Positions 59,085-60,653 of a DNA stretch of 64,000 nucleotides are shown here, one piece after another (the stretch's first letter is position 1; every line of letters begins with the position of its first letter). Origin of the DNA: Timaviella obliquedivisa GSE-PSE-MK23-08B (GTDB lineage Bacteria; Cyanobacteriota; Cyanobacteriia; Elainellales; Elainellaceae); contig JAHHII010000001.1 in NCBI GenBank assembly GCA_019358855.1, positions 248,001 through 312,000 on the forward strand. Reading direction: 5' to 3'. A program made the translations under genes and the position numbers. The notes under the pieces were generated by a model. The model was not told the origin of the DNA and did not search any database. It was given only the letters and a program-made list of their open reading frames with translations.

Positions 59085-59822
59085 TTAACTAATTTTACCG
59101 TTCATTGTCTCCCGAATTGCCTGCTTCATCTCCCGTACTGCTCGCTCCATCCCGACCAGAACAGCGCGACTGACAATAGTGTGACCAATGTTTAACTCCT
59201 CCATGCCTGGAAGAGCCGCGATCGGATGAACGTTCCAGTAGGTCAACCCATGTCCTGCGTTGATGCGAAGTCCAGCCGCGATCGCCGCTTCACACCCTTG
59301 CCTCAACACTGCCAACTCTTTCTCCCGTCCTTTTTCATCCTTCGCCTCAGCATATTGCCCAGTATGCAACTCAATAAACTGTGCCTGTACGGTCGCGGAT
59401 GCCTCGATCTGGCGATCGTCGGCATCAATAAACAAGCTCACCGGAATGCCTGCCCCTTGCAGCACTGCTACCACCTGCTTCATCCGGTCTAGCTGACCTG
59501 CAATATCTAAGCCACCTTCGGTTGTAATTTCTTCGCGCTTTTCAGGAACAAGGGTGACGTAATTTGGCAGGATATCGAGGGCGATCGCCACCATCTCGTC
59601 CGTCGCCGCCATTTCCAGGTTTAGGTGTGTCCGTACCGTTTGCCGCAGCAGCTTTACGTCCCGATCCTGCATGTGCCGTCGATCTTCTCGCAAATGTACC
59701 GTAATTCCATCTGCGCCCCCTATTTCTGCCAACACCGCTGCTGCTACAGGATCAGGCTCAACGGTTCGTCTGGCTTGCCGGACAGTTGCCACATGGTCAA
59801 TATTTACCCCTAAGGTCGGCAT
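59085..59822 (-). CDS. pdxJ: Pyridoxine 5'-phosphate synthase
   Basis: Condenses 1-deoxy-xylulose 5-phosphate with 3-amino-2-oxopropyl phosphate, the last step of de novo vitamin B6 synthesis. TIM-barrel enzyme of 245 aa. It begins [18 protein letters not shown], then [31 protein letters not shown] and [12 protein letters not shown], with the phosphate loop [11 protein letters not shown]. The usual start is ATG 59822; GTG at 59828 has a GGAGGA at 10 nt and could be the true one. Confidence 0.96.
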
Positions 59823-59964
59823 TCTCACAGTATTTCTATCCTCCACGCTCTCGCCTTGATTCTACAGGCTAGGACAAAAATTCCCCATCTTGCTCCAATA
59901 ACTCTGAAAGCCCCCTTTTTCCGTAAGTTTACAACTCTTATCATTGAGAGTATTTTTCCCCAAG

Positions 59965-60027
59965 TATTCCACAAGCTTTCCACAGGGACGAATGAGTTTT
60001 CCACAGGTTTTGAGGGGGTTTTCCACA
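59965..60027 (+). other. Cluster of four DnaA boxes, candidate replication origin
   Basis: Four boxes in the same direction: TATTCCACA (59965), CTTTCCACA (59976), TTTTCCACA (59997) and TTTTCCACA (60019). TTTTCCACA is the cyanobacterial DnaA-box consensus. The starts are 11, 21 and 22 bp apart, close to whole helical turns, so bound DnaA would lie on one face. They lie in a 600-bp region between divergent pdxJ and the DUF2811 gene. Nearby T-rich stretches could unwind. dnaA and dnaN are not in the window; a DnaA-regulated promoter is the alternative. Confidence 0.65.
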
Positions 60028-60428
60028 GCTCTATACGAAGTGACGTGGGTTCACGGATTTCTTGGGGAATAACGAGTTGGCAACGAATCAGCCCTGATCT
60101 TCCTGAGATTACGTTAAGGAATGTAACAAAAAAGCTCTAGGAAGCTTATTATGCCGTTGGGCTTCTTGGTCGCCTGCAAAAACTGCACAAGTGTTCTGCA
60201 TTGACAACCCTACCCCCCCATAGCGTACATTGATGCGACCAACCTTAAAGAGCGCTCCAAAACGACTCAACTCAAATCACCCATAGCATTTCCATATAAG
60301 GTGTTTGAGTCGGCAATAGCTGGAGTTAGCTCAACTTTTGGCTGCATACATCACAGTTATTCACTTAGATTTACTTAACAGGCTCATTCACCATGTACTC
60401 TTCGTACTCTTCCGATACAGAGGTTTCT

Positions 60429-60653
60429 ATGAATTCAAACGTCAGCATTTTGGCTGAGATTCCTGAAGATTTGCACGAATCGCTTCAAGATTATCTGGAA
60501 ACGCACCCCGATTGGGATCACGATCGCGTCTTTGCTGCGGCTCTATCGCTGTTCTTGCTGCAAAATGGCTGTAGCAACACGCCTGATTCTTCTCGTAGCT
60601 ACCGTCGGGCAGCACGGGTTTATTTAGATTCGCTGTTTAAGCACGCGGTATGA
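60429..60653 (+). CDS. DUF2811 family protein
   Basis: A 74-aa protein of a small cyanobacterial family of unknown role. It starts MNSNVSILAEIPEDLHESLQ; GAGG lies 6 nt ahead of this ATG, which favours 60429 over the ATG at 60393. The core DYLETHPDWDHDRVFAAALS and LFLLQN is typical. It is probably a small ribbon-helix-helix-like or helical protein. First gene to the right of the DnaA-box cluster. Confidence 0.85.
   Translation: MNSNVSILAEIPEDLHESLQDYLETHPDWDHDRVFAAALSLFLLQNGCSNTPDSSRSYRRAARVYLDSLFKHAV

Follow-up and report, generated by a model that had tools for sequence, protein, structure and literature searches.

A helically phased array of predicted DnaA boxes upstream of the DUF2811 gene is conserved across Cyanobacteriia

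Analysis of a 64,000-nucleotide stretch of the Timaviella obliquedivisa genome (hereafter the window) revealed five DnaA-type boxes, on one strand and in helical phase, ahead of a gene encoding a DUF2811 protein. Comparison with other genomes of the class Cyanobacteriia suggests that the array is an old DnaA target with precise spacing, and we consider it likely to act in cis on the DUF2811 gene, as a conserved regulatory region to which DnaA would bind. The coordinates of the array, its flanking elements and the neighbouring genes are listed in Table 1.

Table 1 Features of the DUF2811 upstream region, in window coordinates
Feature	Position	Strand	Basis or remark
pdxJ, divergent neighbour, outside the conserved unit	59085..59846	-	Gene calls; the array does not follow pdxJ
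HLR1-like (possible RpaB) element TTTACAACTCTTATCA, directly upstream of the array	59928..59943	+	13/16 HLR1 positions
DnaA-box-like TTTTCCCCA, first box of the array	59954..59962	+	Box scan; conserved in family alignment
DnaA box TATTCCACA	59965..59973	+	Box scan; family alignment
DnaA box CTTTCCACA	59976..59984	+	Box scan; family alignment
Exact DnaA box TTTTCCACA	59997..60005	+	Box scan; family alignment
Exact DnaA box TTTTCCACA, last box, reference for distances	60019..60027	+	Box scan; family alignment
Inverted box-like TGGGGAATA, 44 bp past last-box start	60063..60071	-	Conserved in relatives (family alignment)
Conserved TGTAAC element TGTAACAAAAA, 103 bp from last-box start	60122..60132	+	Kept across related regions
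Promoter-like block CATTGACAA...CCCCC...ATTGATGCGACC	60199..60240	+	Conserved in relatives
DUF2811 gene (PF10929), 74 aa, conserved start	60429..60653	+	Profile match

A preliminary description of this DNA had reported four in-phase boxes of the cyanobacterial DnaA type, lying between divergent genes with T-rich tracts on both sides. Re-scanning of the sequence reproduced the positions and spacings of all four and revealed a fifth that had been missed, TTTTCCCCA, 11 bp upstream and in phase with the others, giving start-to-start steps of 11, 11, 21 and 22 bp. The assignment to the cyanobacterial DnaA type is well supported, TTTTCCACA being the box given in the available portion of PMC4674748. 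The flanking genes are indeed divergent, with pdxJ on the left and the DUF2811 gene on the right. The T-rich tracts are less well borne out, since the flanks are only mildly AT-rich, with an AT content of 0.53–0.57 in bins of 80–230 bp, which a short unwinding element could escape, compared with a window value of 0.516. Boxes are not enriched over the full window, which contains 22 matches with at most one mismatch against 19.97 expected, and five of these 22 are packed into 74 bp. When homologous upstream regions were resampled with a first-order Markov model, in-phase chains of at least three boxes appeared in 0 of 1700 resamplings, and chains of at least two in 2 of 1700. A search of the window for RNA elements gave no Rfam match at the gathering score, and a simple scan for sigma-70 sites and terminators gave site numbers no higher than shuffles suggest.

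The position next to pdxJ given in the preliminary description proved incidental. DUF2811 is also present at only three of 80 pdxJ loci, those of Elainella saxicola (L015), Oculatellaceae Prado106 (L022) and Elainella sp. Prado103 (L055), and the same three are the only ones of the 80 with at least three boxes in 130 bp, or with a pair including an exact box. L015 qualifies with two one-mismatch boxes; when two mismatches are allowed, all five positions are recovered, with steps of 21, 21, 11 and 11 bp. An array tied to pdxJ was rejected. In-phase chains were found in the pdxJ flanks of 0 of 61 controls (those of the 80 loci longer than 8000 bases). Within the same order, DUF2811 occurs in 35 of 36 genomes, and 29 of the 30 loci read there have at least two boxes upstream, the thirtieth being truncated where its contig ends. 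Across Cyanobacteriia, 71 genomes with DUF2811 were compared: 67 have an upstream in-phase chain of two or more boxes and 54 a chain of three or more, counting boxes with at most one mismatch, or with two mismatches if ending in TCCCCA. Clustered boxes upstream of a gene and conserved with it, as here in 67 of 71 genomes, are consistent with a DnaA-regulated promoter. A slightly different upstream windowing gave 68 and 55 of the 71 on the forward strand, and 1 and 0 on the reverse strand. All 24 families sampled include a genome with at least three in-phase boxes upstream of DUF2811. The four genomes short of a two-box chain are G088 and G181, both without dnaA, G167, where the contig ends, and G209. 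At least two in-phase boxes are kept in 16 of 16 genomes examined from family f6, which we take to be the Nostocaceae; in family f19, with several DUF2811 paralogues, the array often has only one to three boxes. Eight in-phase boxes precede DUF2811 in G119 (L264), of which six are TTATCCCCA or TTATCCACA, variants that suggest a shifted DnaA-box preference in family f17.

Conserved elements accompany the array at fixed distances. Of 100 regions, 57 yielded TGTAACAAAAA, which lies 102–104 bp from the last box in 49 of them, and 44 yielded the end motif of the promoter-like block, AATGATGCGACC, which lies 208–213 bp from that box in 37 of them; the TGTAAC motif was not found in 43 of the regions, nor the promoter motif in 56. 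Shuffled sequences gave 1.35 and 0.1 finds per 100, respectively. These 100 regions are those of the 71 genomes, including paralogues, plus others from additional close relatives in the window's family, and are not independent because of this mixture. The outlier distances were 82, 91, 93, 105, 113, 115 and 116 (twice) for TGTAACAAAAA, and 198, 215, 218, 220 (twice) and 222 (twice) for the promoter block. Eleven of the 15 sit 9–13 bp off the usual value, about one helical turn, and a shifted distance may also come from another box being recognised as the last. Across genomes, the last box and the protein domain are separated by anything from about 246 to 619 bp, and the fixed relation is therefore that of the array to the promoter block, not to the gene. 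We presume that the block comprises the DUF2811 promoter and start region; where the motifs are found, the geometry is fixed in the manner of a DnaA-regulated promoter region, with the promoter itself predicted from sequence. On the other side of the array, a stretch at 59918 that overlaps the HLR1-like element matches 14 of 16 positions of the HLR1 consensus, which was taken from the available part of PMC11633204. Of 99 related regions, five have a perfect HLR1 match upstream, placed at −91 relative to the last box in four of them and at −102 in the fifth, and a score of at least 13 was reached in 33 of 99 related regions versus 8 of 99 shuffled ones. The HLR1/RpaB reading of this motif is offered as a lead only.

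The preliminary description had interpreted the boxes as a candidate chromosomal origin, and had named a larger DnaA-box cluster elsewhere among the observations that would speak against it. Origins were assessed from box counts, the positions of dnaA and dnaN, AT content and the GC skew of the whole contig. The genome-wide box check located a larger cluster at C16:28748-28942. It lies upstream of dnaN and packs into 195 bp five exact boxes, distributed over both strands, and two with one mismatch. It is the densest in the genome and has the same boxes in steps of 21 and 11 bp, with an AT content of 0.56–0.68 versus 0.53–0.57 at the array flanks. Exact TTTTCCACA occurs 52 times genome-wide (4.91 Mb, 29 contigs), against 37 for the reversed control. 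The array, on contig C1, adjoins neither dnaA, on C25, nor dnaN, on C16. The GC skew of the 677-kb contig, in a genome of 29 contigs, has an irregular profile whose minimum falls near 665 kb, with none at the array (308 kb); GC skew is said to be unusable for locating origins in cyanobacteria (PMC5987646, in part). Predicted cyanobacterial oriC regions, with this same box type, are bordered on one side by dnaN in 55 of 68 species (passages of PMC4674748), and passages of both PMC4674748 and PMC5987646 place oriC away from dnaN in some cyanobacteria. G061 and G123, complete genomes from other families, carry a large two-strand cluster away from dnaN and separate from each one's DUF2811 array; that of G061 adjoins dnaA. 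Mainly because of the larger dnaN-side cluster we reject the oriC reading, and the array is probably not the oriC of T. obliquedivisa. A more general role as chromosomal origin or second origin could draw on the presence of five in-phase boxes in an intergenic region, on the use of several origins by some cyanobacteria (PMC7198777, in part) and on the location of oriC away from dnaN in some of them (passages of PMC4674748 and PMC5987646). We nevertheless give it almost no weight, considering the two-strand clusters upstream of dnaN in the same genome and apart from the DUF2811 array in G061 and G123, the lack of a marked AT-rich stretch in the array region, and the conserved promoter-like block that takes up its downstream side; the lack of a skew minimum at the site points the same way, but in an uninformative profile.

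Large two-strand clusters that look like oriC regions away from dnaN were read at two loci: L225:3001-3218, with seven exact and three one-mismatch boxes, and L217:1680-1876, with ten exact boxes, beside dnaA.

In 388 class genomes, DnaA domain IV was not found in 20, DUF2811 in 13, and both in 10. Among the 334 of good quality (completeness 90% or more, contamination 5% or less), dnaA is kept in 321 and absent from 13, DUF2811 is absent from 12, and both are absent from 10 (Fisher p = 4e-15, not corrected for descent). In the set of 80 class genomes, 68 of 68 with dnaA also have DUF2811. DUF2811 thus tends to be lost along with dnaA in cyanobacteria. The double losses comprise six genomes of family f12 together with G165, G183, G189 (1110 contigs) and G085. 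The last, a single contig rated 99% complete with Ycf54 present, gave no match for dnaA, dnaN, guaA or DUF2811; it is an odd assembly or unusual biology, an unreliable case either way, and was discounted as a double loss because the dnaN and guaA matches are also missing. Two good-quality genomes, the drafts G242 and G327 (380 and 460 contigs), have dnaA and no DUF2811 match, as does the 69% complete G002. Conversely, DUF2811 is present with no dnaA match in seven incomplete genomes (62–83% complete) and in three good dnaA-less ones (G088, G181 and G217). The control small gene Ycf54 was detected in 13 of 13 dnaA-less good genomes, and is broken by stops in G181.

Three dnaA losses lie inside genera with dnaA-bearing members (labelled g33, g35 and g64). 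The pair from g35 is the most telling case for boxes depending on dnaA: in G155, where dnaA is present, five boxes form a chain and the promoter block is there too, whereas G088, without dnaA, keeps DUF2811 and CATTGACAA and has no box with at most one mismatch in 900 bp. In g64, the dnaA-bearing G177 has three boxes in a chain. Of its dnaA-less members, G217 has an intact DUF2811 and one exact box, and G181 has no exact box and a DUF2811 with two stops; this genome shows general decay, because the broken DUF2811 is accompanied by a broken Ycf54. Exact phased pairs were found in 46 of 76 class genomes with dnaA and in 1 of 13 without it, where they sit on a 26.7-kb contig. The boxes accordingly depend on the presence of dnaA, as far as can be read from the small number of independent dnaA losses in which DUF2811 was retained (G088, and partly G181 and G217).

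A scan of 194 genomes of the phylum for the exact pair TTTTCCACA-N12/13-TTTTCCACA found it in 47, all within the 89 of the class Cyanobacteriia, and the reversed control pattern was found in 1 of 194. The exact pairs merge to 73 clusters, 32 upstream of DUF2811, 16 upstream of dnaN and 25 elsewhere, with constant orientation: all 32 DUF2811 clusters point at the gene, and all 16 dnaN clusters point away. Follow-up gene searches covered 80 of the 89 class genomes; the other nine (G098, G106, G137, G161, G183, G187, G195, G197 and G203) are without an exact pair, and their dnaA and DUF2811 were covered in the larger genome set. Seven of the 25 other clusters lie directly 3' of guaA (G031, G043, G061, G067, G079, G096 and G169), and three adjoin a putative CDF transporter gene, an identification that is our own reading. 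In L219 and L231 the array is flanked by converging guaA and CDF-like transporter genes. Not every phased array is therefore a promoter element, and the guaA-side arrays are possibly non-promoter DnaA sites like datA or DARS. Such an array is not a general feature, a phased chain 3' of the gene being found at 4 of 30 guaA loci; the remaining 26, including that of T. obliquedivisa, are without one.

The array ahead of DUF2811 might itself titrate or recharge DnaA as datA or DARS do, controlling replication timing and lying beside DUF2811 by ancient linkage. Its box type and phasing are those of the dnaN-side cluster, and its boxes are gone in a genome that lost dnaA. Other phased arrays also lie beside guaA or the CDF-type gene, where a promoter role is unlikely because two of the loci clearly place them between converging genes. 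We regard such a role for the DUF2811 array as improbable, since a passive site would not be expected to keep a constant orientation to DUF2811, or a constant distance to the promoter with shifts of about one turn, and since DUF2811 itself is lost with dnaA.

The DUF2811 protein offers a further possibility. An in-frame ATG at 60393 would lengthen the product by 12 aa. Two structure models, with mean pLDDT of 65 and 62 (low confidence), contain helices only. A Foldseek search with the first gave no confident fold match (best E 1.0), a profile search of solved structures returned nothing significant, and an NCBIfam search gave no match. The family was matched in only one of 14 control genomes, that of Synechococcus elongatus. 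DUF2811 is small, its sequence recalls, to our eye, ribbon-helix-helix regulators, and repeats upstream of a protein's own gene are typical of autoregulation; the boxes could then serve as an operator bound by the DUF2811 protein or by a different regulator that happens to use a DnaA-like box. We find this very unlikely, because the same repeats with the same phasing occur at the dnaN-side cluster, and because the boxes are gone in G088, which lost dnaA and kept DUF2811. The models, of low confidence, show helices only, where a ribbon-helix-helix regulator would have a strand-helix-helix fold, and the first is without a confident fold match.

In the cis-regulatory reading that we prefer, DnaA monomers would occupy about five boxes, 11, 21 or 22 bp apart on the same helix face, and form an oligomer resembling the one at oriC. 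This oligomer would act on the DUF2811 promoter from about 210 bp upstream in a fixed helical phase, probably with a second factor at the conserved elements flanking the array, and the level of DUF2811 would follow the quantity or state of DnaA. We lean slightly towards activation over repression, given how far upstream the site lies and that genomes lacking dnaA have usually lost the gene as well. The product probably works in a DnaA-linked process, because the gene tends to be lost with dnaA. More tentatively, and at somewhat less than an even chance, DnaA, the array and DUF2811 may constitute an ancient module in which DUF2811 feeds back on DnaA or on chromosome copy control, which would explain both the retention of dnaA and the joint loss. 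In that event a second job, other than origin firing, would keep dnaA in cyanobacteria that replicate without DnaA, and loss of this job would explain why DUF2811 vanishes with dnaA.

Action of DnaA on genes through box clusters is a known kind of system. In Bacillus subtilis, DnaA-box clusters in eight intergenic regions are used by DnaA for gene regulation (cited in the available text of PMC7198777). Like the array, they are intergenic boxes outside oriC, upstream of a gene and presumably DnaA-bound, but they belong to another phylum and another gene; the array is set apart by its single orientation, 11/21/22 bp phasing, fixed distance to the promoter block, class-wide occurrence and a gene co-lost with dnaA. 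The DnaA regulon of Escherichia coli features double boxes 2–3 bp apart (PMC11317965, in part). The weaker boxes of the array are also 2 bp apart (the 11-bp step), whereas its strong boxes are 12–13 bp apart, and no array precedes a DUF2811 gene there. In cyanobacteria, the oriC lying upstream of dnaN shares TTTTCCACA boxes and steps of 21 and 11 bp (passages of PMC4674748), but the dnaN cluster of T. obliquedivisa has boxes on both strands, whereas the array is one-stranded and beside a promoter-like block. Tight spacing to that block also distinguishes it from datA, DARS1 and DARS2 of E. coli, which resemble it as DnaA-box loci away from oriC (PMC12371093, in part).

Searches of titles and abstract starts in the openly licensed literature found no report of a DnaA array ahead of DUF2811, and the name DUF2811 was absent from the openly licensed literature searched. 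The term DUF is likewise absent from the available text of PMC7198777, in which the ChIP-qPCR passages concern oriC. A class-wide, promoter-phased DnaA array with a target gene co-lost with dnaA was not seen in the openly licensed literature. In three model cyanobacteria, dnaA can be disrupted with no effect on growth when conditions are optimal, and the authors regard the role of DnaA in species of this kind as unclear (passages of PMC7198777). Regulation of DUF2811 is a candidate answer to what DnaA does where replication does not need it. The class-conserved array and the co-lost gene provide a site and a gene for testing the role of DnaA, as well as a functional lead for DUF2811. The retention of boxes in family f6, if this is the Nostocaceae, matters because Nostoc PCC 7120 replicates without DnaA. 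The latter is stated in the available text of PMC7198777.

Several other box groups were observed. Phased arrays 3' of guaA lie near position 3000 in L219, L231, L214, L218, L213 and L222. In T. obliquedivisa, three exact in-phase boxes with steps of 21 and 22 bp are found at C1:434246-434297 (L010:9747-9798), flanked by a 198-aa ORF and by what we read as rpsD, with guaA some 5 kb away. Four exact TTTTCCACA lie on the minus strand within 650 bp at C1:315252-315895 (L009:15253-15896), 7 kb from the array, inside a 596-aa coding frame and without phasing. Finally, a 26.7-kb contig of G143, a genome without dnaA, carries tandem TTTTCCACA with identical spacers (L228, G143:C2), which in our reading look like plasmid iterons.
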